From Lentisphaerae bacterium GWF2_45_14 (lineage in GTDB: Bacteria > Verrucomicrobiota > Lentisphaeria > Victivallales > GWF2-45-14): 64,000 nucleotides of DNA. The stretch's first letter is position 1. Each line of letters starts with the position of its first letter. Below the pieces are notes generated by a model. It worked only from the letters and a program-made list of their open reading frames with translations, did not search any database and was not told where the DNA came from. The stretch is from positions 1 to 64,000 of the forward strand of contig MHBG01000048.1 in the NCBI GenBank assembly GCA_001804785.1, in the 5' to 3' direction. Below, piece after piece: positions 1,153 through 54,776 of this stretch. A program made the position numbers and the translations under genes.

Positions 1153-1202
1153 AAGCTGGGGTGGATGAGGGGACTCGAACCCCCGGCCTTCTGGGCCACA
1201 AC
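1153..1202. repeat. attL: Left prophage attachment site; 50-bp direct repeat of the tRNA-His 3' half
   Basis: aagctggggtggatgaggggactcgaacccccggccttctgggccacaac, identical to 54695-54744. Confidence 0.95.
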
Positions 1203-1356: not shown

Positions 1357-2514
1357 ATGGCGAAAAAGATGAAATTTACTCAGGCCGCAATCAATAAGCT
1401 TCCCTATTCCGATCCCCGAATTGATTATCAGGATACCGAGACAAAATATTTATATCTCCGTGCCGGGAAAATATCGAAAACTTACTTCTTCATGCGCCGC
1501 GCCAATGGGAAGCTGAACAAGAAAGGTATCGGCAATGCAAGCCAAGTATCGCTTTATGACGCTAGAAAGGCCGCAGACAATGCAAATGCCAGGATTGCCG
1601 TCAATGATGCACTGAAGCCTGTTATGGCATCAAAATTGACGCTTTGCGATGCCTATGAGTTCTATTGCGAAGCAAAAGGTGAATCAAAGGCTCAGGAAAG
1701 CTTATGGCGGCTTTATCTGTCCGCGTTAGGTTCTGTAAAGCTTGATGATTTATCACGCGATCAGATTCGTAGATTACTCAAAGAAATCGGAGACAAGGGA
1801 ATTAAAACCACAGCGAATAGAGTTGCGCAGTTAATTAGAGCCGTCATTACCTTTGCAATTCACAACGATAAATGGAGCGGCAATAATCCAGCAATGGGGC
1901 TGGTTTTGTACAAGGAACATGCTAGAAAACGCTATTTGTACCCCGATGAAATGACTCGTTTTTTTGATGAAATGATAAAGATCGAGAAGCATGTTATGGC
2001 GAAGCAATATCAACCTTCATGCGATGCAATCCGGCTTCTGCTTCTAACCGGACAACGGAAAGCAAACGTATTGGCCATGCGCTGGGATGAATTAGACTTG
2101 ACTCATGCGAAATGGACAATCCCCCCGGAAAAGTTTAAAAGCGATAATGAACAACGGGTTGCCTTGTCTGAGGTTGCAATGGAAATATTGAACCGCCGTA
2201 AAGCCGCGTTAGGTCATTCCCGTGAATGGGTATTTCCGGCACGTACCAAAGGTGCGAAAACTCGGCACTTGGCCGACATTAAAAAAACATTTGCCCGAAT
2301 CATTGAGAATGCAAAAATTGAAAATCTCACGATTCACGACTTGCGGCGAACGTTTGGAAGCTGGCTGGCCGCTGACGGCGTACCTCTTCACATCATCAGC
2401 AAAATGCTTGGTCATGCCGATACGCGGATAACCGAAAAAGTCTATGCCCATCTTGATTTATCACCGCTGAAAAATGCCGCTGAGATTTTCAGCAAAAGAT
2501 TGCCCGGCAAATAA
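1357..2514 (+). CDS. int: Tyrosine site-specific integrase
   Basis: TGQRKANVLAMRWDEL...LTIHDLRRTFGSWLAADGVPLHIISKMLGHADTRITEKVYAHL carries the R...HxLR..H...Y motifs; lies next to the att site. Confidence 0.95.
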   Translation: MAKKMKFTQAAINKLPYSDPRIDYQDTETKYLYLRAGKISKTYFFMRRANGKLNKKGIGNASQVSLYDARKAADNANARIAVNDALKPVMASKLTLCDAYEFYCEAKGESKAQESLWRLYLSALGSVKLDDLSRDQIRRLLKEIGDKGIKTTANRVAQLIRAVITFAIHNDKWSGNNPAMGLVLYKEHARKRYLYPDEMTRFFDEMIKIEKHVMAKQYQPSCDAIRLLLLTGQRKANVLAMRWDELDLTHAKWTIPPEKFKSDNEQRVALSEVAMEILNRRKAALGHSREWVFPARTKGAKTRHLADIKKTFARIIENAKIENLTIHDLRRTFGSWLAADGVPLHIISKMLGHADTRITEKVYAHLDLSPLKNAAEIFSKRLPGK

Positions 2515-11617: not shown

Positions 11618-11833
11618 ATGAAAAACACAAGGATTATCGCAGGAGCGTTGATTGTCATAGTGATTGCAATGCTCCTTGCCGGGTGCATGAACAAGCATAT
11701 CGCGCAATGGAAGTACGATACTCAGACGATGCGAATAGCCGAGGCCTATTACCTTGACGATACGTCAATCAAAATATGGTCTGAAGGGACGGGCAAAACA
11801 ATTGAGATAAGCCCTACAGTCGTAGGGATGTAA
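11618..11833 (+). CDS. Small lipoprotein, spanin-like candidate
   Basis: Signal peptide with lipobox LLAGC; located in the lysis region. Confidence 0.6.
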   Translation: MKNTRIIAGALIVIVIAMLLAGCMNKHIAQWKYDTQTMRIAEAYYLDDTSIKIWSEGTGKTIEISPTVVGM

Positions 11834-11858: not shown

Positions 11859-12224
11859 ATGAGACTCGCAATGATCGTAATCGCAATGTTCGGCCTCCTG
11901 ATAGCCTCCGGCTGTCTGACTACCGAACAGCAGGCACAGGTAACTTCGACAATCGAATCAGTCGTTGACGCGGCTCTGCCCGTGGCGGCTCAGCTCGGCA
12001 CAGTGGCGGCACAGGCGTATGTGTCTCAGCAGGTATCCGAGGGGAATCTTACAACCGAACAGGCTCAGGCTATTAATTCTGCCATTGCCTCGGTCGCTTC
12101 GGGCATTACAGCGGCGGTTGTCGGAACCGCGACTGCTGAAACCGCGAAGGATGTAAAATCCCCGTGGCTTTCAACGTCGGTCAGGAACCGCGTTGTTAAT
12201 GACGCGCTTTCCCGATTGAAATAA
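11859..12224 (+). CDS. Lipoprotein, second spanin-like candidate
   Basis: Signal peptide with lipobox IASGC; Ala/Thr/Gln-rich mature part. Confidence 0.6.
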   Translation: MRLAMIVIAMFGLLIASGCLTTEQQAQVTSTIESVVDAALPVAAQLGTVAAQAYVSQQVSEGNLTTEQAQAINSAIASVASGITAAVVGTATAETAKDVKSPWLSTSVRNRVVNDALSRLK

Positions 12225-12305: not shown

Positions 12306-13070
12306 ATGAAAAGAATATTGCTGCTTGCCGGGACAAATTATACTGGAGAATCTCATAAACTTCGTGGATGTGTACAAGACACTTATAAGCTTTCTTCGAA
12401 GTTCGGGAAAATAGGTATTGACGATAGACAGATACTCCGTGAAGATGATATGAGTAAAAAGAACTGGCTTGATTTGCTTCTCAAAGCCGTTCTTGAAGCA
12501 CAGCCCGGAGATGAAATATATCACGGGCATTCACACCACGGCACATGGTATCCTGACCAGTCCGAAGAAGACGGGCGCGGTGAAGCATGGGTTCCGGATG
12601 ACTGGAACTATGATACCCAATCACTTATTACAGATGATGAAATGGATGAAGTTCTCGCACACCTTCACCCGGAAGCATTTTTTATAGACTGGCCGGATTG
12701 CTGTCATGCGTCAGGATCACTTCGTTCAATTGCGTTTGGAAACGAAATTCCGCGTTTTGTGGTTAACCCCGAACTCCCGGAAGATACGGGAATTGTTCGA
12801 ATCACAAAGACCGTTCTTCCTCTTTATCGCCACAATGTCGTACAATTGGCGGCTTGCCGCTCCGATCAGACCAGCGCGGACGCTTTTATCGAAGGGGAAT
12901 GGTGTGGAGCATTCACGCACTATGCGCTTAAGGCATGGGACGACGCAGGAAATATTTCGTTCGGCAATCTGATAGACAGAGCCGGAAAACTCCTTTCCAG
13001 ATTCGGATACAGCCAATGCCCGGAATATGTGGGTTCAGAGTCAAACATGGAAAGGTTTATGTTGTCATGA
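12306..13070 (+). CDS. Caspase-like protease (metacaspase, peptidase C14)
   Basis: LLAGTNYTGESHKLRGCVQDTYKL; catalytic His region GDEIYHGHSHHGT; EDGRGEAWVPDDW...ITDDEM; catalytic Cys region FIDWPDCCHASGS; VVQLAACRSDQTSADA...GAFTHYAL. Confidence 0.9.
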   Translation: MKRILLLAGTNYTGESHKLRGCVQDTYKLSSKFGKIGIDDRQILREDDMSKKNWLDLLLKAVLEAQPGDEIYHGHSHHGTWYPDQSEEDGRGEAWVPDDWNYDTQSLITDDEMDEVLAHLHPEAFFIDWPDCCHASGSLRSIAFGNEIPRFVVNPELPEDTGIVRITKTVLPLYRHNVVQLAACRSDQTSADAFIEGEWCGAFTHYALKAWDDAGNISFGNLIDRAGKLLSRFGYSQCPEYVGSESNMERFMLS

Positions 13071-14215
13071 TAACACGCGGAGACATTGAAGAGCGCAAGC
13101 CGTTTCTCCCGGAAATGACCGGGGCGAAAGTAACGAGCCATGAATTTTACGATGTAGCATTCGACTCTTTTCACAAAGTTCCATTCTGGACTCTTCACCG
13201 CGTTACGCCTGGACGAACAATGAAGAAATTTCATAGAGATGGAACACCAATCGAAATAGGGCGCGGCTGTGGAAACTTCTGTGCCGATCCGATGATTGTC
13301 GAATCACCAGCAGGGAGCGCGTACGCTCTTTCAGGTTACGATACCGGACACCTCGTCCCGGCAGAGGCCATGCAATTTGATAAACGGGCGCTTGCTGACA
13401 GCTTTTACACCAGCAATGCGTGTCCACAGACGGACGAGCTTAATTGTGGTCCGTGGCGCACTCTGGAGCATAACGCATTCAAGTCTGCAATGAAGGGTAG
13501 GGAGCTTGTCGTCATAGCCGGGGCAATCTTCACGGAAGGAAAGAGATATTTATCGTCCGGAGTTGCTATCCCTGATGAGTTTTTTAAAGTCGTTGTCTGC
13601 CAGAAAGAGGGAATATACGATTGCTGGATTATGACCAACTCAGAAAAGCCGATTGTCAAGTTCGTTACGCTGTCGGATATCGAATATCGTGCCGGACTGG
13701 TTTTCCCGTTCCGGGATTTCAGGCACGTCCCGGACTTTATGACCGCCGCGTCTTCACGTGAACTCCGCGCATTGAACGGAATCAAAATCGAGAATCTTCT
13801 CAATGGCGAATACACCATGCTTGAGGATTATATGTGGAATCCGCACGATGCAGAATATCCCGATGCAAGAATAAAAATACCGAAAGGATTCACTACCGAC
13901 TTCGGCAGCGTACCGGGAATCGTTCAGAATGTTTTTCCGCCTATAGGCACGTTCCGCGATCCGGATTTCTTGGGGCATGACTTGCTGTACGGAACGGAAT
14001 ATTTCGAATGGGAAGGGATTGCGTACAAGATAATCAAAGAACCTTCTAAAAATCGTGCCGAATGCGACTGGCGATTGCTTGAGTCTCTCAAGGCTGACGG
14101 CGATTCATGGTTCTCAAGAAATACTATCTGGAGTGCGGTGAAAGTCGGCGGCGGCTTCGTGTGGGCAAAACATAATCCGGAATCGATCGAGGCAAACAGG
14201 AAACTTTTAAAATAA
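13067..14215 (+). CDS. EndoG/NucA-like DNA/RNA non-specific endonuclease fused to a C-terminal DUF1353-like domain
   Basis: YALSGYDTGHLVPAEAM...FYTSNACPQTDELNCGPWRTLE (D-x-G-H and N..G.W..LE nuclease motifs); C-terminal IKIPKGFTTDFGSVPGIVQNVFPPIGTFRDPDFLGHDLLYG (DUF1353-like). ATG at 13067 overlaps the caspase stop (ATGA). Confidence 0.85.
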   Translation: MITRGDIEERKPFLPEMTGAKVTSHEFYDVAFDSFHKVPFWTLHRVTPGRTMKKFHRDGTPIEIGRGCGNFCADPMIVESPAGSAYALSGYDTGHLVPAEAMQFDKRALADSFYTSNACPQTDELNCGPWRTLEHNAFKSAMKGRELVVIAGAIFTEGKRYLSSGVAIPDEFFKVVVCQKEGIYDCWIMTNSEKPIVKFVTLSDIEYRAGLVFPFRDFRHVPDFMTAASSRELRALNGIKIENLLNGEYTMLEDYMWNPHDAEYPDARIKIPKGFTTDFGSVPGIVQNVFPPIGTFRDPDFLGHDLLYGTEYFEWEGIAYKIIKEPSKNRAECDWRLLESLKADGDSWFSRNTIWSAVKVGGGFVWAKHNPESIEANRKLLK

Positions 14216-14229
14216 AGGGAGTCGGGGAA

Positions 14230-14529
14230 GTGAAGGACATATTTCAAAAAGGAGTTGAATTGCTTCCAGTTGTATCGCTGGCGGTATTCGGAGGACTTAC
14301 GAGGACACTGGTCGGAAAGAACCTCAAAGAGCGTTACAACTGGCGCATTGGCATAACCGAAATGGTGATTGCCGGCTTCGCCGGAGTCGTCCTTCATCTG
14401 CTGATGTCAGAATACAATATTTCCGAGGGATATAAATCTGCGGCAATCGCCCTGTCCGGGTACTCTGCCCGTGAAGTTTTGGGACTACTGCGGACGGGAC
14501 TGCTTAAAAAGATTTCGGGAGGAAAGTAG
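14230..14529 (+). CDS. Holin-like membrane protein
   Basis: 99 aa with about three hydrophobic helices in a holin-type arrangement; GTG start. Confidence 0.6.
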   Translation: MKDIFQKGVELLPVVSLAVFGGLTRTLVGKNLKERYNWRIGITEMVIAGFAGVVLHLLMSEYNISEGYKSAAIALSGYSAREVLGLLRTGLLKKISGGK

Positions 14530-14783
14530 TGAAACTGGTACTGGTAGAGTGGGCTGACTCAAAAAGAATGTCTGACGGATGGATATATAATAATGAAGTG
14601 AAGCCGTCTGTCTGTGTAAATAAATCTGTTGGATGGATTCTTGAATCTACAAAAGACATTCTTGTCATAGCTCCTCACAGGGGAATAAACGAAGAGACAA
14701 ATTACGGTGCAATATCAATTCCGAAATGTGCCATAAAAAGAATTTTTAAGGTGGAAAAGAAGAAGGTCAAAAAGGTAAAATGA
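14529..14783 (+). CDS. Small phage protein
   Basis: 84 aa, GTG start, tightly packed. Confidence 0.55.
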   Translation: MKLVLVEWADSKRMSDGWIYNNEVKPSVCVNKSVGWILESTKDILVIAPHRGINEETNYGAISIPKCAIKRIFKVEKKKVKKVK

Positions 14784-15436
14784 AGCGTTCTGGAACAGTT
14801 TATTTTCTTGGAAAGGGCAAAGAATCCTGCGTTTCGTTCAGTCCGCATGCGCGGGTATGGGCATGTAATGATTGGTATGTTTCCTATCCGAGGGTAAAGC
14901 CGGAAAGAGTTTATCAGATTCATACAGAAGAAAAAGAATGGAGGCTCCCGGCCGGACGCTATGTAAGATGGAAAAAGAATTGTGAAAAAATCAAAGCTCA
15001 AATTGTTGTAAGAACTGACGTAGGAGTAAAAAACCAACGCTTCTTTGATAGCGCAAGCGCTCGTAAAGAAATGGGGGAAGATTTTTTTGGAGGGTCATTC
15101 AGCTTCATGTTCTATGACGCAATAAAAGAAGGTGTTGCAAAAATTATTCTCAAGGGTTTTTTGCTTCTTCAACACGGCGAATATGAATGGCAGACACCTG
15201 CAATACTGATGAATATCAAAATTGCAAGAGAACACGGAATAGACGTTCAATGGACATGGGAAAATGACCGTAAGTCTCAACTTGTTTCGGCGGTTAAAAT
15301 GTTTGGCAAAGTACGTGAGGTCAAAATGAACTATGGAGACGAGGACGAATGTGTCAAGAAGATAGATGTCGTTAAGTCCTGTGGACTTGAAAACCTTAAA
15401 TCAATAACGGAATTGAATAATGAAACTTCAAATTGA
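14780..15436 (+). CDS. Phage hypothetical protein
   Basis: 218 aa with ATGA overlap upstream. Confidence 0.6.
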   Translation: MKRSGTVYFLGKGKESCVSFSPHARVWACNDWYVSYPRVKPERVYQIHTEEKEWRLPAGRYVRWKKNCEKIKAQIVVRTDVGVKNQRFFDSASARKEMGEDFFGGSFSFMFYDAIKEGVAKIILKGFLLLQHGEYEWQTPAILMNIKIAREHGIDVQWTWENDRKSQLVSAVKMFGKVREVKMNYGDEDECVKKIDVVKSCGLENLKSITELNNETSN

Positions 15437-21941: not shown

Positions 21942-24900
21942 ATGAGTTTAAGGCACGTTCCTGTAGATATTTCAGACTTTAATCCGGATGAATTTCTTAA
22001 ATCAACCGCGTCAAATTCTTCTCAGTCTGCCATGACTGGAACAATAGATATTTCAGATTTTGATCCTGATTCATTCTTGGGAACAAAAAAAGAAGTATCC
22101 CAAGAAGAAATAAGGGCTGCATTTCCCGAGCCGTCCCGTGTCCGCAGTCCGGAAGAACGAGATTACAGGGAGTTTTTGACACTTCACGGAGTGAACCCTG
22201 CAACCGGAGGATACAACGTTGAAACGAAGCTTCCTGAAACAATGGCAAATAAGGCCGTCAAGTCGTTTGAATCCGGCACGTTGCAAGCTGGGGCTTCGCT
22301 GGCGGCAGTTCCGGGATTCGTGGGGGGAATAGACCGCGCACTTAGAGCCAGCGCTCTCGAAAAAAGAAAAGCTTTTGGCGATCCGATTGTTGATATAATT
22401 CCACAGGAATATAGGGACAGCCTTGAAAAGCGGACAGATGGTTCATTCAAGGGCAAGGGATTCTACGGCGAACTCAAGAGGCCGGACGGCGGAGTATCAA
22501 CGGAACTCAGTTTCGGGACTTCGGACGTTGAACCCGGCAAGGAAGTTGAAATTCCCGCTCTTGTTCCTGGACTCAGTCAGGAGCAGAAAGATTATCTTCT
22601 TTCCACAAAGCCGGAAGAGTCCAGCAAGAAAAATCCACAGATGTGGGATTCGATTGTCGGACAGGCTGTCAACTTTGCCAAAGAGCGCAAAGCCAAAGGG
22701 CTTCCGTATTTCGCAAGCAATACCGAACAGCCGATTGATAAACAGGACTGGATAGATGTTCTTGACGGAACCGCAAAGTTCATGAAAGACAAGGCCGCAA
22801 AAAGAATGCAGACCGTTTCCGGGGGACTTGATATTATCGATACCTTCAAGCAGAAAGGAACCGCGGCAGGGGTTGAACAAATCCTTTACGGGGTTGTCAA
22901 CCAGGTTCCCAATCTTGCGACACAGATAGCGGCTTTATCTCTCACTGGCGGTACGGGTTCACTGGCGTATATGGGGGTTACCTCCGCTGCGGACAAGCGC
23001 ATTGATATCAAGGATAATCCCAATATGTCGGAGTGGGGGAAGATAGCGAACGAACTTGGAACTGGCGGTTTTGAAATTTTTGGTGAACGGATCGGCGGAC
23101 TCCCGATACTGAAAAGAATCATGGGAGATGCGCCGAAGAAAGCCATTAAAAAGGGTGTAACTAATTTTCTGAAAACCATAGGCTTCGACATGTTTCAGGA
23201 AGGAGGTTCAGAAGTTGTAACGCAAATCGGGCAGAACCTTACGGATATGCTTACCGGAAATACGGACAAGCCGCTTTCCGAAATGACTATAAGGGAAAAA
23301 GCTCAAAAACTCGGACAAGGCGCTGTGGACGCCGGGATTATCGGTGGCGTAATGGGCGGCGGTATGGGTACAGTCGAGTATGCCGGCAAGCCAAAAATAT
23401 CAACGGACGAAAGAACAGACCTCCTGAACGATTCGAAAACTTCGACAAGTTCAAATGAGCTTGAGAATGTACCTGAATCTCAGGCAATTAATTTCCCGGC
23501 ATCGGGCGGCATTGATTTTGACTCAATGGGTAAAGACGAATTGTCCGCATATATTACGGATAAAACCGGGCAAGCGCCGTCTTCGCTTGCAAGGATTGAA
23601 GACCTCGCGGAAGACGCAAAAGCAATTCAGAATGCCGAAGCTATCGAGAATGCGAGTAATGCACAAGCCGCAAGTGAAGCTCAGATGATAGAGCCTCAGC
23701 AAGAAATTCAGCAGGAACAAATTTCAGAAGAAGAGCTGCCAGTTCCAGAAAGCGCGGCGCCGGAAGTAAATTCAGCAATGCAAGCCGGTGTAAAACCCGA
23801 AATTCTTCCAGCCGACAATGCAATGGCGCAACCACTATTAGGAATTGCCGAAGGCCCCGGCGATATTCCTGTTACATCTTTGAATATCGAAGAAGCTCTG
23901 CGGATCATGAAAGAATCAGAAGTTGATTATACTCTTGATGCTCCGCAAAGATTGCCAAGTCAGAATATTGAAACAACCGCTAAACTTGATTTGCTTGTTC
24001 CTGCACAGGAAAAGGGAAATGTCGCGTTTACACCGACTCCTGAATTGATTCCCAATATAGCCGAAGAGCAGAAACAGTCCGATGACAACAAATTACCAGA
24101 AGCTGACAATCGCCCTGTGAATATCGAAAGCGTCAAAACGCCTTCCGGCTGGACAAAAAACTTGTTGAAAGCGCAAGTATATGCCCGGCGTCTGGGACTG
24201 CCGGTTCGTCTCAATGATAAAACTCTTGGGCTTGATCAGCTTGTCAAGAATATAAAGGAGGTTTTGAAAGAGCAAAAAAGGTCAACTTCCCCAAAGGCAG
24301 AAACCTTTGATCAGTGGCAAGCGCAGTACGAAAAAGAACTCAGAGAAAAGTTCAATAACGAGGAAGATGTGAAAAAGAATCTTGACGCTGTCGAATGGGC
24401 GCGTCATAGATGGGGTCTCAAAGGTATAGCATCAAGGGCAAATTTACTTAAGAAAACAGTGCTGGCAAATGGTAAAAAAACAAAAAACAAAGCTCCAGAA
24501 CTAATGACTCCTGAAGAAAGATATCATAGCGAATGGGAATCTCCTGATTTTCCAGGAAAAGCCAACAAAGCTACTAAACCAAATTATGAAAAAATTAAAT
24601 TAGAAACTGGTTTAGATTTTGATGTTGTAGGATATCAGCTTATTCCTAAACAACCAAACAGGTTTCAAAAAAGGCAAATTTTTACATCCAGTGATGTCCA
24701 AAATATCCGAGCCGCATTACGAGAACAAGGACATAATAGTATAGTTAATGATTATTATATTTCCGATGCCGATTCAAAAATAAAAGTAGGCGATGGCCAG
24801 ATAATAAAATTAGATGGAGGATTGGGAAAAGATTACAGTCTTCCAACTGCTCCTATTCATTTTAGAGAAATTAAAGATGCGATAGCAAAGCATAATCCTG

Positions 24901-27900
24901 TTTCTGCTCTTGCTATAGAATCCTTTGAAATAAAACTTCCTGAAGACTATGTTCGCGATGGCAATAAGTATGTGTTTAATAAAAATCAACTTCAATCTAT
25001 TCCCACGACTCGGACAGAATCAAAAAAGCTCGGGTTTAACAAAAATACTCCAGTTCAAAAGATTGAAGACTTCGGTGAAAAAATAGGAGGAGCCAAGAAA
25101 GATTTGTGGAAAAGCAAATTTGCCGATGCTTTCAATAAAGATACCAGGCAAGTTCCGCTTTCCGAATCATTTCCCGAACCTGATTACAATGCTCTTCTTG
25201 AATCAGGTTTAAGCAAGAAAGCCGTGGCGTTTATTCATACCATAAGAGATACTATACCCTCCAAGCCCAGACGATGGGGACTCGATAAATATGCAAAAGG
25301 AGTCGAAGAGTCAAGGGAAACGGCAAGGCTTATAATAGAAGGTAAAATAAACGATGATTCTATAACTGAAACTCTGCATAAATTACATAAGAATTCTCAA
25401 GGGCTTTATGCGTTATATGAAGCAATGGGACATGATCGGTCTTTGAAAGACTATTCTATAGGCATGCATTATTATGAGCTTTATAATGGGATAAAGCAGA
25501 ACGTAAATAAATGGGCTATATCGGATACCAATACCCATAGAGATATTATACATGCCGACACCGCAGAAGACGCTATTGAGAAATTCAAGAAATATCTTGA
25601 CGGTCTTTCCGAATCAGGCAAGAACAAGAAAATTGAATTCGTTATTTATTCAAAAAGCAACGAAAAGGGGAAGTATTACATCAGCAAAAAAACAGGGTCA
25701 AATTACATCGATCTAAAGAGTTTTGATAATGTTGAAGATGCGAAAAAATATCGTATCGATAATTACAGTGACCTTGTAAATCTTCTCGAAAAAAGTAAAT
25801 ACATTCCTGAAACAAGAACGGATACAAACCGCGAACGAGTCGGCAAAGACTATCGGCAAGGGAAAGATGTTACTCCTGAAATGTTTACTTCCGCATTCGG
25901 TTTTCGTGGTATCGAATTCGGGAATTGGGTTGCAAAAACAGAAGAACGGCAGGCGTCTCTTAACCGGGCGTTTGATGCTCTTCATGATCTCGCTGATATC
26001 CTTGGAGTTGCGACACAAGCACTATCCCTCAATGGACAACTCGGGCTTGCATTTGGAGCGCGAGGAGCCGGAGGTCGGAATTCCGCAGCGGCTCATTACG
26101 AACTGGACAAAGTTGTAATTAACCTGACAAGAAAGAATGGCGCCGGATCGCTTGCTCATGAATGGTGGCATGCCTTGGATAATTATTTTCCCAGGATGAG
26201 GGACAAGCCGGCCGGACATCTTACTACGATGCCTTTCGCGTTACGAAATAAAGACGGCAGTGTCAATGATTCTGTTCGTTCTGAAATGATAAATGCTTTC
26301 GATGATGTCATGAAAGCCATATATCGCAGTGAAATGAAAACAAGATCAAAACGGCTTGATTCAACAAGGACAAAAGAATATTGGGCAAAAGATGTTGAAA
26401 TGTCTGCGAGGGCTTTCGAAAGCTATATTCTCAACAAAATAGAAGGAAAAGAATTCAGCAATGATTATCTTGTGAATATAGTCAATGAAGAAGCGTTTCA
26501 AAAAGATGCAGAAGAGCATGGCGGAAACTCTTCTTATCCGTATCCACTCAAGGCCGAACAGCAGGAAATAGATGCAGTTTTTGATAAATTCTTTGATACA
26601 ATCGAAGAAAAGGAAGAAAACGGCAAGCATGTTCTTTACCGCAGCTCTGAATACGGGAATATTCGCGGCGGCGACAAAATCAGGGCGCGGCGGATCATCC
26701 GGGAAATGACAGGTTCAATCGACAATGTCCGGTTTGCGGAAAAACTGTTCAGTAATGATGGTCAAGAGGTATTAGGCAAATACGAAGACGCCTATATCGA
26801 CATTGCAGAAAACAAAGGAAATATCGAGGACACGGCCAGGCATGAAGCCTTGCACTATGCCTATGATTTACTTTTAACCGAACGCGAAGCGCAAATATTC
26901 AATGAAGCCGCATCTGCCCAGGAACTTAATCACGAACAAGCGATCGAGGGCATCAATAAATTTGCTCATGATCATTCCGGACTCAGAGGCAAAGCCCGTT
27001 TGATTGCCGGGCGCATAATCAGACGCATACGGCAGCTTTTCGGAGCCGAGCGCATGATTGACCGGATCAATGAGATTTATGACCGGGCATTGTCCAGAAA
27101 ATATGCAGAGCGTGAACTGACCGGCAAAAGTAATTATGGCGGCGAAGTTCAGTACATGTCGCAGAACGAACGGAAAAACCTTACCGGACTGATAGAGCAG
27201 TTCAAAAAAGAACTTGACAATGTCGAAATGAATAAAGAGCAAAAGGGTATTTACGATGTTATAACCGGCAATAAACGAATTACTCAAATCAGAAAAAATG
27301 ATTTAGACAACCTGGCAGGATTTGTAAATCTTGAAAAAGGGTCGGGAGAATTTGGTGCAACTCATATCATGGCAAAACATTTTGACGGTACATCGGGAAA
27401 AGTAACAGCCAGAGAAATTATCAATATCGGTGAAGTTATCAGACATGGCAAGATAAGGGGGAATGGTGACAGGCATATTTATACATTATGGGAAAATAAT
27501 CAAAGATACCGAGCTATTGTTCTCACTGATGGAAAGAAGCAAAGTGTAATCACATTCTATTCAAATAAAACGGCATATTCACCCGGGGATCATACTGTCC
27601 CCGATGGCACTAAGACCAATGATGAATATGCCTTTAGCAACTCAGGCGGGAGTCATAATGCTCCGCTAGCACAAAAGGCCGTAACCCAAGCTCCTAAAAC
27701 TATTATACATGAAAATAATGAAAATGTCAAGGAATTGAATCAGAATGAAAAAAATGAGCCGGACGACAACTTTTATTCCAACCGCAAGGCAGAAACGCGG
27801 GGCAATATGGCCTCGCCGCGTGTTGAATCCGACTCAAAGGATTTTCCCCACACTCGAATATCCGAATCGGATAATCTAAGGTCAGACTCCACGCAGGAGC

Positions 27901-30900
27901 AAAAGACCGTGGCGGAGGAAATCCCAGACAGTATAAATGACAAAACCGATAAAAGCAAATACCGGACGCTCGAAGTCGCGGAAATGACTCATGAAAGCGA
28001 AATGAAACAGAATGCCCAGCATATAAGTTTTGCCCGTGAATGGCTCAATACTCTTTTTGAAAAGGATACGAATGCCAAAACGGACGTTCGCTTCCTGAGT
28101 CCGTTGCTTCAAACGATTTTCTACTACAGTAAGAAAGTTCCAGCGCTCGGACGGGTATTTGATTCTGCAATGCGTCTGCGCGACAATAAATATTTCTATG
28201 AAAACATGATTTTTAATGCCGATAGCGGCATGGGCGAATCGGAGCTTGAGCCGATAGTCAAATTCAGCAAGGCAAACAAAGCGGAGTGGACACGGCTTTC
28301 AAAAGATTATCTTTGGAAACGCGATATAGATGCAGTCGGATACAAAGTCAGGCAGAGCGATGATGGCACAGTTTTCCGGATATACACGCCTGAAAATATA
28401 CTCATAGATCAATTTTCCAATGAAAACGCCGCATGGGAAGCCGCGTGGCGTGCCGAAGTCCAAGACATGAAAAAAGCCGGGTGGAGTAACGGGGCTTGTG
28501 AAACCGTCCTCAAACTTCGCCGGATCATGGGGCGGCAATATGAAATTCTCAAAAACGGCGTTGAACAGCAGAAAAAGGCATTGAAAGAACTCGGCGCCGA
28601 AATGCCCGAAATCAGCGGCATTGACATTTTCGAAGAATTAAAAAAGATGGGCGACCGGAGGGGATATTATATGCCCAGAATGCGACACGGGAATCATATG
28701 CTATGGGCGCATAAAACCGGAGAGAATCCTCGACTCGAAATATTCGATACAAAACTCATGAGAGCCAAACGCGCATCGGAATTGCGGCGTAATGGTTATA
28801 CCGCGGAAATGTCGCAAAGCAATACTCCGTCCGAGGATGTTTTTGCCGGAAGCGATATTACCGCGATGAATGACCTTATCAATAATGCGATGGATCGGAT
28901 TCGCAAAAGCGATGAACTGACATTTGAACGGTTCGGGCTTACGGGAGAATGGATTGATTACCCATTGAAAAACAGCAAAACGGAGCGGCATTTCGTTATT
29001 TCCGGAGGCAATACCAGTATTCACCATAATCTATTCAAGGAATTCGGCGGCAATTATTACGGGGATATGTGGCATTTTAAGGATCGTAAAAAGAGCTTTG
29101 AAAAAACGATCCTGAAAGCGATTGCCCATGTTGAAGGCGCCGCTATTGTTCAGACTGACGCAATAGGCCGTGCGCTGGCTGAACAGATCGCTGCCATAAT
29201 TCATAGCCATGGTTCGAGATCGCACAAGATCAAACGCGATGATCGGACGGGAAAAGATGTTTATCTCGGCTTTGAAGAGGATATTATCCAAGCTGCGACA
29301 CTCACGGGCAGAGCTATTGCCGGGGGAAGCGCAAAACGAATTATGGCTAAAGAAATGCTGGAAGCTTTCACAGGTCATGACTTGAAATGGAAAGATTATA
29401 AAGCTGAACACATGCCGAAAGACGTTAAGCTTGGCTCTCCTGAATATTATCAGGCGATGGAAGATACCTGGAATGGTTATCAGGATACCGTCAGAGCGCG
29501 CGGTATAGAATCTTCCAAGCAGAAAATAGCTTACCGTGAAGGTAAGAGCTTCATGAATGATATGCTCCGCAATGAAGAACCTATGGAGCGCGTTTTCGGC
29601 ATTATCAAAGGAATAGCCGCATTTAAATTCCTTTCCGGAGTTTCTTCAGGGGTAATAAACCTTACCGCACTGGCAACCAGCGTTCCGGCCGCAATGAAAT
29701 CATTCGGAAATATCGGATTCGTACGCTCTGGTTTTCTTCTCATCGCGGCCTCAAACAGATATACCCGCTATATGATGCGGAAAAAATTTGGGATAGGAAA
29801 GACTATGTCCGATAATGAAGAATGGCTTTTTGGCGAAATTACACGCCGGGGCTGGGATGCCGACTTGCAGAATCAGGAATTGACCGGAGCAACTATGACA
29901 TGGGGCGATAAAACTTGGAGAAGTATTGTCGATTTGTCAATGATTGTTTTCAGTACGACTGAACGATTAAACCGCGCTTCAACCATTGCCGCAGCGTATA
30001 ACGGAATGGCTGAAAAATTTGACGGTGAACTACCCGAAAGGCAAAGGGACAATCTTCTGCTTAAAGCAAAAGAAATTTCCGATAAAGCGCATGGTGTATA
30101 TGGAAAAGAAAATTTGCCGTCCTGGGCGCGTGGAGCATCTGCCGGGGCTCATGTGGCGCGGTCATTTTACATGTACAAGACATTTACTCATAATTATCTT
30201 CAGTTAATGGGGGAAATGTTCAAGGGCAAGAAAGTCTCATCATTTGCCTGGATGACGATTGCGCCGGCAATAGTCGGAGGATATTCGGCAAATGCATTAG
30301 AACCCATATTGAAAGCGCTGGCGTCCCTGATTCCCGGACTCCCCGATGATCCGGAAGAAGCCCTTTATAAATGGCTCCAAAAAACATTTGGTAAAACGGC
30401 GGAACGTTTCGGGCGTTCAGGGCTGGCCGGACTTTTAGGATTGAACCTCAAGGGTTCTATGGCAATCGGTTCATTTGAACTTCCGACAACAATAGATGAA
30501 GTGCTTGGCGCTCCTTATGCAATGGGGACAAGCGTCTTCAATGGAGGGAAGAACATTCTACGTGGCGATTGGATTAAGGGAGCCGAAGAGCTTTCTCCGC
30601 GTTTTGCAACCGGCCCTATTAAAGCATATAGGGAATATACCGAAGGTGTTACCAGCAAGAGCAATCAGCCGCTTTACTGGGGCAATGAGCGTTTAAAAGC
30701 AGATTATTATGATGCCTTATTGCGCTTTGCCGGATTCAACCCGGCTGAGATATCGGAAAAAAGAGAAGCACAGTGGAGTGAAAAACAAGTTGAAGCAAAA
30801 TACGGCGAAGAGCGCAAGATTATCTATGTAAAAGTGCGCCGTTTCCTGCTCGATGGCGGCGCAACTGCGGAATGGACAGATATTCTCAGGGAAATAATGG

Positions 30901-31145
30901 AGTATAATGCCAGAGTCAGAAGCCGCGAGCTTCATAATGTACCCCTGATTACGTCCAGCTCATTAAGAATCCTTCAGCGGAAAATGAATACGCCTGAAAA
31001 ACGTGAACAATTAAGAGGCGCAGAACCGGAAGAAGACAGAAAGAGGGAAGATTTATCGACGTTCTCGTTTGAGGATGAACCTGATTCGGAAAACGCTGGA
31101 AGGTCAAGATCGAGGCGCGCAAACAGGCGACAGACGAGAAGGTAA
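21942..31145 (+). CDS. Giant polyvalent protein (3067 aa) with two zincin motifs and a PBECR-like nuclease-type segment
   Basis: KGKGFYGELKRPDGGVSTELSFG...IPALVPGL; AHEWWHALDNYF (26157-26171); ARHEALHYAYDLL (26841-26855); GATHIMAKHFDG...VIRHGKI...YRAIVLTDGKKQSVITFYSN. Confidence 0.85.
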   Translation: MSLRHVPVDISDFNPDEFLKSTASNSSQSAMTGTIDISDFDPDSFLGTKKEVSQEEIRAAFPEPSRVRSPEERDYREFLTLHGVNPATGGYNVETKLPETMANKAVKSFESGTLQAGASLAAVPGFVGGIDRALRASALEKRKAFGDPIVDIIPQEYRDSLEKRTDGSFKGKGFYGELKRPDGGVSTELSFGTSDVEPGKEVEIPALVPGLSQEQKDYLLSTKPEESSKKNPQMWDSIVGQAVNFAKERKAKGLPYFASNTEQPIDKQDWIDVLDGTAKFMKDKAAKRMQTVSGGLDIIDTFKQKGTAAGVEQILYGVVNQVPNLATQIAALSLTGGTGSLAYMGVTSAADKRIDIKDNPNMSEWGKIANELGTGGFEIFGERIGGLPILKRIMGDAPKKAIKKGVTNFLKTIGFDMFQEGGSEVVTQIGQNLTDMLTGNTDKPLSEMTIREKAQKLGQGAVDAGIIGGVMGGGMGTVEYAGKPKISTDERTDLLNDSKTSTSSNELENVPESQAINFPASGGIDFDSMGKDELSAYITDKTGQAPSSLARIEDLAEDAKAIQNAEAIENASNAQAASEAQMIEPQQEIQQEQISEEELPVPESAAPEVNSAMQAGVKPEILPADNAMAQPLLGIAEGPGDIPVTSLNIEEALRIMKESEVDYTLDAPQRLPSQNIETTAKLDLLVPAQEKGNVAFTPTPELIPNIAEEQKQSDDNKLPEADNRPVNIESVKTPSGWTKNLLKAQVYARRLGLPVRLNDKTLGLDQLVKNIKEVLKEQKRSTSPKAETFDQWQAQYEKELREKFNNEEDVKKNLDAVEWARHRWGLKGIASRANLLKKTVLANGKKTKNKAPELMTPEERYHSEWESPDFPGKANKATKPNYEKIKLETGLDFDVVGYQLIPKQPNRFQKRQIFTSSDVQNIRAALREQGHNSIVNDYYISDADSKIKVGDGQIIKLDGGLGKDYSLPTAPIHFREIKDAIAKHNPVSALAIESFEIKLPEDYVRDGNKYVFNKNQLQSIPTTRTESKKLGFNKNTPVQKIEDFGEKIGGAKKDLWKSKFADAFNKDTRQVPLSESFPEPDYNALLESGLSKKAVAFIHTIRDTIPSKPRRWGLDKYAKGVEESRETARLIIEGKINDDSITETLHKLHKNSQGLYALYEAMGHDRSLKDYSIGMHYYELYNGIKQNVNKWAISDTNTHRDIIHADTAEDAIEKFKKYLDGLSESGKNKKIEFVIYSKSNEKGKYYISKKTGSNYIDLKSFDNVEDAKKYRIDNYSDLVNLLEKSKYIPETRTDTNRERVGKDYRQGKDVTPEMFTSAFGFRGIEFGNWVAKTEERQASLNRAFDALHDLADILGVATQALSLNGQLGLAFGARGAGGRNSAAAHYELDKVVINLTRKNGAGSLAHEWWHALDNYFPRMRDKPAGHLTTMPFALRNKDGSVNDSVRSEMINAFDDVMKAIYRSEMKTRSKRLDSTRTKEYWAKDVEMSARAFESYILNKIEGKEFSNDYLVNIVNEEAFQKDAEEHGGNSSYPYPLKAEQQEIDAVFDKFFDTIEEKEENGKHVLYRSSEYGNIRGGDKIRARRIIREMTGSIDNVRFAEKLFSNDGQEVLGKYEDAYIDIAENKGNIEDTARHEALHYAYDLLLTEREAQIFNEAASAQELNHEQAIEGINKFAHDHSGLRGKARLIAGRIIRRIRQLFGAERMIDRINEIYDRALSRKYAERELTGKSNYGGEVQYMSQNERKNLTGLIEQFKKELDNVEMNKEQKGIYDVITGNKRITQIRKNDLDNLAGFVNLEKGSGEFGATHIMAKHFDGTSGKVTAREIINIGEVIRHGKIRGNGDRHIYTLWENNQRYRAIVLTDGKKQSVITFYSNKTAYSPGDHTVPDGTKTNDEYAFSNSGGSHNAPLAQKAVTQAPKTIIHENNENVKELNQNEKNEPDDNFYSNRKAETRGNMASPRVESDSKDFPHTRISESDNLRSDSTQEQKTVAEEIPDSINDKTDKSKYRTLEVAEMTHESEMKQNAQHISFAREWLNTLFEKDTNAKTDVRFLSPLLQTIFYYSKKVPALGRVFDSAMRLRDNKYFYENMIFNADSGMGESELEPIVKFSKANKAEWTRLSKDYLWKRDIDAVGYKVRQSDDGTVFRIYTPENILIDQFSNENAAWEAAWRAEVQDMKKAGWSNGACETVLKLRRIMGRQYEILKNGVEQQKKALKELGAEMPEISGIDIFEELKKMGDRRGYYMPRMRHGNHMLWAHKTGENPRLEIFDTKLMRAKRASELRRNGYTAEMSQSNTPSEDVFAGSDITAMNDLINNAMDRIRKSDELTFERFGLTGEWIDYPLKNSKTERHFVISGGNTSIHHNLFKEFGGNYYGDMWHFKDRKKSFEKTILKAIAHVEGAAIVQTDAIGRALAEQIAAIIHSHGSRSHKIKRDDRTGKDVYLGFEEDIIQAATLTGRAIAGGSAKRIMAKEMLEAFTGHDLKWKDYKAEHMPKDVKLGSPEYYQAMEDTWNGYQDTVRARGIESSKQKIAYREGKSFMNDMLRNEEPMERVFGIIKGIAAFKFLSGVSSGVINLTALATSVPAAMKSFGNIGFVRSGFLLIAASNRYTRYMMRKKFGIGKTMSDNEEWLFGEITRRGWDADLQNQELTGATMTWGDKTWRSIVDLSMIVFSTTERLNRASTIAAAYNGMAEKFDGELPERQRDNLLLKAKEISDKAHGVYGKENLPSWARGASAGAHVARSFYMYKTFTHNYLQLMGEMFKGKKVSSFAWMTIAPAIVGGYSANALEPILKALASLIPGLPDDPEEALYKWLQKTFGKTAERFGRSGLAGLLGLNLKGSMAIGSFELPTTIDEVLGAPYAMGTSVFNGGKNILRGDWIKGAEELSPRFATGPIKAYREYTEGVTSKSNQPLYWGNERLKADYYDALLRFAGFNPAEISEKREAQWSEKQVEAKYGEERKIIYVKVRRFLLDGGATAEWTDILREIMEYNARVRSRELHNVPLITSSSLRILQRKMNTPEKREQLRGAEPEEDRKREDLSTFSFEDEPDSENAGRSRSRRANRRQTRR

Positions 31146-54694: not shown

Positions 54695-54744
54695 AAGCTG
54701 GGGTGGATGAGGGGACTCGAACCCCCGGCCTTCTGGGCCACAAC
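54695..54744. repeat. attR: Right prophage attachment site inside tRNA-His
   Basis: 50 bp identical to 1153-1202. Confidence 0.95.
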
Positions 54745-54776
54745 CAGACGCTCTAACCAACTGAGCTACAACCACC
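54699..54776 (-). tRNA. tRNA-His (GUG)
   Basis: GGTGGTTGTAGCTCAGTTGGTTAGAGCGTCTGGTTGTGGCCCAGAAGGCCGGGGGTTCGAGTCCCCTCATCCACCCCA; cloverleaf with anticodon GTG and encoded CCA. Confidence 0.92.

Follow-up and report, generated by a model that had tools for sequence, protein, structure and literature searches.

A metacaspase gene overlaps the gene for a nuclease–DUF1353 fusion enzyme beside the holin gene of a Lentisphaerae prophage

Metacaspases are usually viewed as cellular proteases of stress or cell death, and the occurrence of one in a phage, encoded by a gene that overlaps the gene for an EndoG-like nuclease, raises a question: is this an apoptosis-like pair, or do the two enzymes serve the phage in some other way? 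The locus lies in the window, the 64,000-nt stretch of DNA that was analysed, which is part of a MAG of 3.77 Mb and holds a complete prophage. (The genes of the cassette and its neighbours, with their domains and codons, and the integrase gene are on the plus strand.) The prophage is bounded by 50-bp att repeats: the left repeat (1153..1202) is identical to the right repeat (54695..54744), which overlaps the 3' part of tRNA-His (54699-54775, minus strand). A tyrosine integrase gene (1357..2514) adjoins the left repeat, and portal, major head, terminase, internal-virion and RecD2-like genes are also encoded. The same phage is present in IMG/VR as a 49.7-kb contig. The prophage is complete, temperate and podovirus-like; the prophage setting proposed in the initial annotation is thus borne out by integrase, att repeats, tRNA-His and virion genes. 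Its virion region also includes, at 21942-31145, the gene for a 3067-aa protein with LPD5 and LPD1 domains (a large polyvalent protein).

The first gene of the pair (12306..13070) encodes a metacaspase (Peptidase C14) of 254 aa, as indicated by Pfam, by an AlphaFold2 model and by fold matches. The Pfam Peptidase_C14 match covers residues 4-243 with E=6e-11, above the curated cut-off; the model, made from 44 phage C14s, has a mean pLDDT of 83.9, and its best fold matches in the PDB are metacaspases (AtMCA9, 9n3e, E=6e-19; MCA4; GSU0716; TbMCA2; Yca1). The catalytic residues His78 (codon 12537-12539) and Cys133 (codon 12702-12704) are intact and, together with Asp131 and Cys184, invariant in 44/44 phage C14s, which upholds the earlier reading of this gene as a caspase-fold protease with a His/Cys dyad. 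Metacaspases cleave after Arg or Lys (PMC9622860); of the candidate acidic S1-pocket residues that would go with this specificity, D131 is invariant and D69 is found in 40/44 phage C14s. Neither a signal peptide nor a transmembrane segment or other membrane anchor was detected in the window metacaspase. The protease lacks two of the three calcium-site Asp residues of the type I enzyme CgMCA-I (Asp198 corresponds to Gly92 and Asp245 to Arg140, while Asp214 is kept as Asp110), so there is no support for holin-gated entry of Ca2+ as its trigger.

The stop codon of the metacaspase gene overlaps the start codon of the second gene as ATGA (13067..13070), exactly as claimed at the outset, and GGAAAGG stands upstream of this start. 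The second gene (13067..14215) encodes 382 aa. Residues 18-213 (13118..13705) form a DNA/RNA non-specific endonuclease domain (Endonuclease_NS, E=8e-30), which among solved proteins is closest in sequence to mitochondrial EndoG (E=3.5e-12, residues 20-213). All the expected elements of the active site are there: the general base within the DxGH motif (D-T-G-H, residues 92-95, 13340-13351), the metal-binding Asn and the downstream Glu, with N117, N126 and E134 intact. D92, G94, H95, N117, Q121, N126, W130 and E134 are invariant across 80/80 phage nuclease homologues, and the identification as an EndoG-like nuclease accordingly stands. No signal peptide was found on the fusion protein, whereas most phage homologues of the nuclease, judged by eye, seem to have one.

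What the earlier note lacked is the second half of this protein. Residues 266-358 (13862..14140) match DUF1353 (Pfam PF07087, E=3.8e-10), so that the gene product is a two-domain enzyme, an EndoG-like nuclease fused to a probable phospholipase A2 (PLA2). Suspicion of a PLA2 was first raised by an HDxxY motif in DUF1353. Searched against the PDB, the DUF1353 profile gave three matches up to E=10, all of them PLA2s with HD...D aligned, and all weak (E=0.016, 0.16 and 0.7). A studied member of the family is TtaP, for which a 2024 paper (PMC11525133) gives a measured PLA2 activity that is lost in D85A, and the catalytic residues H70/D71/D85. These correspond to His304 (codon 13976-13978), Asp305 (13979-13981) and Asp334 (14066-14068) of the window domain, which are invariant in 55/55 DUF1353 sequences. 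The structural model of the fusion protein, which covers the DUF1353 domain alone, has a pLDDT of 86 and gave no PLA2 match in Foldseek; this is consistent with the statement, in the same paper, that only a three-helix core is common to DUF1353 and other PLA2s (PMC11525133). On sequence grounds the domain is probably a phospholipase A2. Databases label it otherwise: in Pfam it is a domain of unknown function, and in PHROGs a tail assembly chaperone, a label we judged a weak annotation against the biochemistry of TtaP. Fusion to a nuclease may not be new as such, because endonuclease domains, with lysozyme and protease domains, are listed among the fusion partners of DUF1353 (PMC11525133).

Metacaspase, fusion enzyme and holin are encoded in one tight same-strand run. 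The holin-like gene noticed downstream (14230..14529, GTG start) proved to be of the LydA type (superfamily III), matching Phage_holin_3_3 (PF16083, E=8.7e-14) above the Pfam cut-off. Just ahead of the metacaspase gene are two lipoprotein-like genes: a small one (11618..11833, ...LLAGC), the product of which is a possible outer-membrane spanin, and a second (11859..12224, lipobox ...LIASGC) with a weak PHROG match to holins. Pfam and PHROG recognised no endolysin among the window genes scanned; the earlier placement in a lysis region nevertheless holds.

Is the pair itself a conserved unit? The flanks scanned were 4-6 kb, with many contigs ending sooner, and within them a nuclease gene was found near C14 at 0/53 other viral C14 loci (set 1), 0/48 further viral loci (set 2) and 0/80 genomic C14 loci. 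Reciprocal scans gave C14 or DUF1353 near the nuclease at 0/79 other viral nuclease loci, and C14 or the nuclease near DUF1353 at 0/82 viral DUF1353 loci. Among the loci examined the adjacency of C14 and nuclease is confined to the lineage of the window prophage, and on these counts we reject a conserved pair. Conserved linkage in related phages had been set beforehand as the refutation test of the initial annotation; it was absent within the 4-6 kb flanks, and a two-component protease–nuclease module that is conserved finds no support. From the idea of an apoptosis-like pair there remain the caspase fold, the nuclease site, the coupling of the genes, the lysis neighbourhood and the prophage; the conserved death module does not.

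A prophage of a same-family host (L368) points to how the arrangement may have come about. It carries a lipoprotein gene, a DUF1353 gene, a 92-aa gene and a homologue of the 218-aa protein encoded at 14780..15436 of the window, with neither C14 nor nuclease; its homology to the window prophage is partial. C14 and nuclease thus appear to have been added beside an older lipoprotein–DUF1353 core, rather than to be a conserved, co-evolved pair. The 217-218-aa protein common to the two prophages (L368:5575-6228; 29% identity) matched no family. A second lipoprotein–DUF1353 pair, again without C14 or nuclease, is found elsewhere in the same MAG (L364, contig C92, 157-1170) and probably comes from another prophage.

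If the nuclease is not the regular companion of phage metacaspases, the genes that do accompany them should be informative. Endolysins occur within two genes of C14 at five phage loci (GH108, L029; Phage_lysozyme, L058; Amidase_2, L061; Amidase_3, L066; TIGR02594, L072), and a seed search added matches at L379 and L436. When the sets are combined, endolysins make up 7/272 of the genes at most two away from C14 against 1/695 of the more distant ones (p=8e-4; set 2 alone, p=0.08), a comparison in which the seeds were drawn partly from set 1 and so favour finds near C14. By crude transmembrane and lipobox rules, small membrane proteins are also enriched near C14, both in set 1 (25/158 vs 29/405 distant, p=0.002) and in set 2 (20/114 vs 25/290, p=0.010), the latter being biased because its query (A12) included two members of lysis cassettes. 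Lipoproteins are enriched in set 1 (12/158 vs 6/405, p=6e-4), a result not repeated in set 2 (4/114 vs 8/290), and neither enrichment is seen around genomic (chromosomal) C14s. The association with lysis genes is partly post hoc, having been noticed in set 1 before it was tested, and the loci are phylogenetically non-independent; at 22/47 set-1 loci, no gene within two of C14 encodes a small membrane protein or a lipoprotein. At L379 (1471-3329) a lysozyme gene overlaps C14, which in turn overlaps a lipoprotein gene, all in one run, and this is a clean candidate for a caspase-containing lysis cassette.

Probable phospholipases are found in the same company. DUF1353 adjoins or lies near C14 in the window and at L020, L407 and L413; at L025, which has the C14 closest to that of the window (49%), a patatin phospholipase gene is two genes away; and phage DUF1353 genes sit by holins, endolysins and lipoproteins. 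Operons of this kind are not wholly new, phage-related ones with metacaspases having been recorded for Clostridium in a 2012 survey (PMC3501461). Our search found no publication on metacaspases of phage lysis regions, which is weak evidence, subscription literature lying mostly outside the search; Baltic Sea literature on metacaspases and phage contained no phage metacaspase.

The reading we prefer is that the locus is an accessory late, lysis-region cassette, the protease, nuclease and probable phospholipase of which help to dismantle the cell; we put its chances at about even. On the identity of the enzymes and the order of their genes the locus is direct. As to timing, both proteins would be made late and, to judge from the absence of signal peptides, would accumulate in the cytoplasm until the holin opens the membrane. 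They would then act jointly on the remains of the cell: as to substrates, the phospholipase would attack membrane lipids and the nuclease leftover DNA and RNA, while the protease would cut proteins after Lys or Arg. Such cooperation would speed collapse of the envelope and release of virions. An untargeted cytoplasmic nuclease together with a holin also fits breakdown at the end of infection, with no call for apoptosis-like signalling. A broader proposal, which we advance only tentatively, is that one class of phage metacaspases is a genuine but so far overlooked component of lysis cassettes, accompanied by varied endolysins, holins and phospholipases, and that the window holds a three-enzyme demolition set with a nuclease–PLA2 fusion that the protease possibly releases or activates at lysis.

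Four other readings have to be weighed against the lysis-region cassette. The pair might be a moron, that is, a lysogenic-conversion or defence module placed in the late region and directed against superinfecting phages rather than serving lysis. C14 is accessory and lies in a prophage; PADLOC, run on the two proteins only, gave a weak 'caspase' match (E=4e-6), and some phage C14s score below the cut-off against the model of EACC1-associated caspases. However, a scan of the neighbouring genes revealed no EACC1, STAND/NTPase, sensor, TIR or gasdermin partner near C14, the holin gene follows directly on the same strand, and relatives of the metacaspase adjoin endolysins in large phage contigs. 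We consider a defence role unlikely.

Alternatively, the metacaspase could activate the nuclease by cleavage, for example in the segment between the two domains, and the two together form a device for cell death or host takeover. The gene overlap suggests co-production; the interdomain segment (about residues 214-265, ...SSRELRALNGIK...) contains Arg and Lys, after which metacaspases cut (PMC9622860); and caspase-like and NucA/EndoG domains are common effectors of prokaryotic conflict systems (PMC8195603). Against this, the two genes adjoin nowhere else among the loci examined, the domain order resembles that of an enzyme already complete and active, in which no segment stands out as inhibitory, and neither between the two genes nor around them did an immunity gene turn up. 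Activation by cleavage seems to us quite unlikely.

It is very unlikely, too, that the enzymes are packaged in the virion and, once injected along with the phage genome, break down the DNA and membranes of the host early in infection. The cassette does sit between tail and internal-virion genes, and one homologue of the nuclease, that of Yersinia phage YerA41, bears an annotation as associated with the phage particle; most phage homologues, however, start like signal peptides and share no common virion neighbourhood (both by eye), and relatives of C14 and DUF1353 favour lysis genes. Least probable of all is a metacaspase that serves turnover of phage or host proteins and has nothing to do with the adjoining nuclease–phospholipase, as might be suggested by another phage group with tail-anchored C14s beside Hsp20, ClpS or ClpX, since no such genes lie near the window C14 and it has no membrane anchor.

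That other group (L402, L403, L404, L420, L422 and L423), in most members of which C14 ends in a C-terminal membrane anchor, is a possible phage proteostasis cluster; the identities of ClpS, Hsp20 and ClpX were checked for L402 and L404 only, L404 having a full ClpX. With this group in view, phage metacaspases fall into more than one functional class. A guess that the gene 5' of C14 in L402 is YkuD-like found no PDB match and was dropped. Elsewhere, a 160-kb contig of possibly giant-virus origin (L075, 5785-8330) has a metacaspase with an apparent DNase II gene nearby (3.7e-67; assigned by elimination and inspection of the sequence), and at L444, L446 and L447 small proteins starting KRVFISFDYDHD..., by eye similar to defence proteins of the ThsB/TIR-like kind, are encoded just before divergent caspase genes.

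If a class of phages does use metacaspases at lysis, they would offer a testable setting in which to seek the substrates of bacterial metacaspases, and perhaps a path by which caspase-like enzymes meet EndoG-like ones in prokaryotes. The fusion of nuclease and probable phospholipase in a lysis region suggests, moreover, that active digestion by some phages extends beyond the cell wall to DNA and membranes.

How, finally, does the locus compare with known systems? With metacaspases (PF00656; AtMCA9, AtMCA4, GSU0716, TbMCA2, Yca1) the window protein shares the fold, the His/Cys dyad, the QTSAD region, the Asp two residues before Cys and a single-domain build of 254 aa, but it is phage-encoded, lacks two of the three type I calcium-site Asp residues and departs from them in the residues that follow the catalytic Cys-His (DCCHASGS). 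The nuclease has the DxGH motif, metal-binding Asn and N..W..E motif of EndoG/NucA nucleases (PF01223), yet differs from them in its fusion to DUF1353 and in having no signal or mitochondrial targeting peptide. The DUF1353 half, like TtaP-class PLA2s (PF07087; PMC11525133), matches the Pfam family and keeps each of the three catalytic residues, but is the C-terminal half of a nuclease fusion. Prokaryotic conflict systems with caspases and effectors (EACC1, NucA-trypsin, bacterial gasdermin) likewise place a protease of the caspase fold close to an enzyme that could be toxic, although they do so with the EAD, sensor, NTPase or gasdermin partners that were not found at the window locus. For the phage-related metacaspase operons of Clostridium, the accessible part of the survey reports no link to a lysis cassette (PMC3501461). 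Compared with the holin–endolysin–spanin cassettes of phages, the window has a protease, a nuclease and a probable phospholipase and no recognised endolysin, but it shares with them the holin, the lipoproteins and the compact array of late genes.
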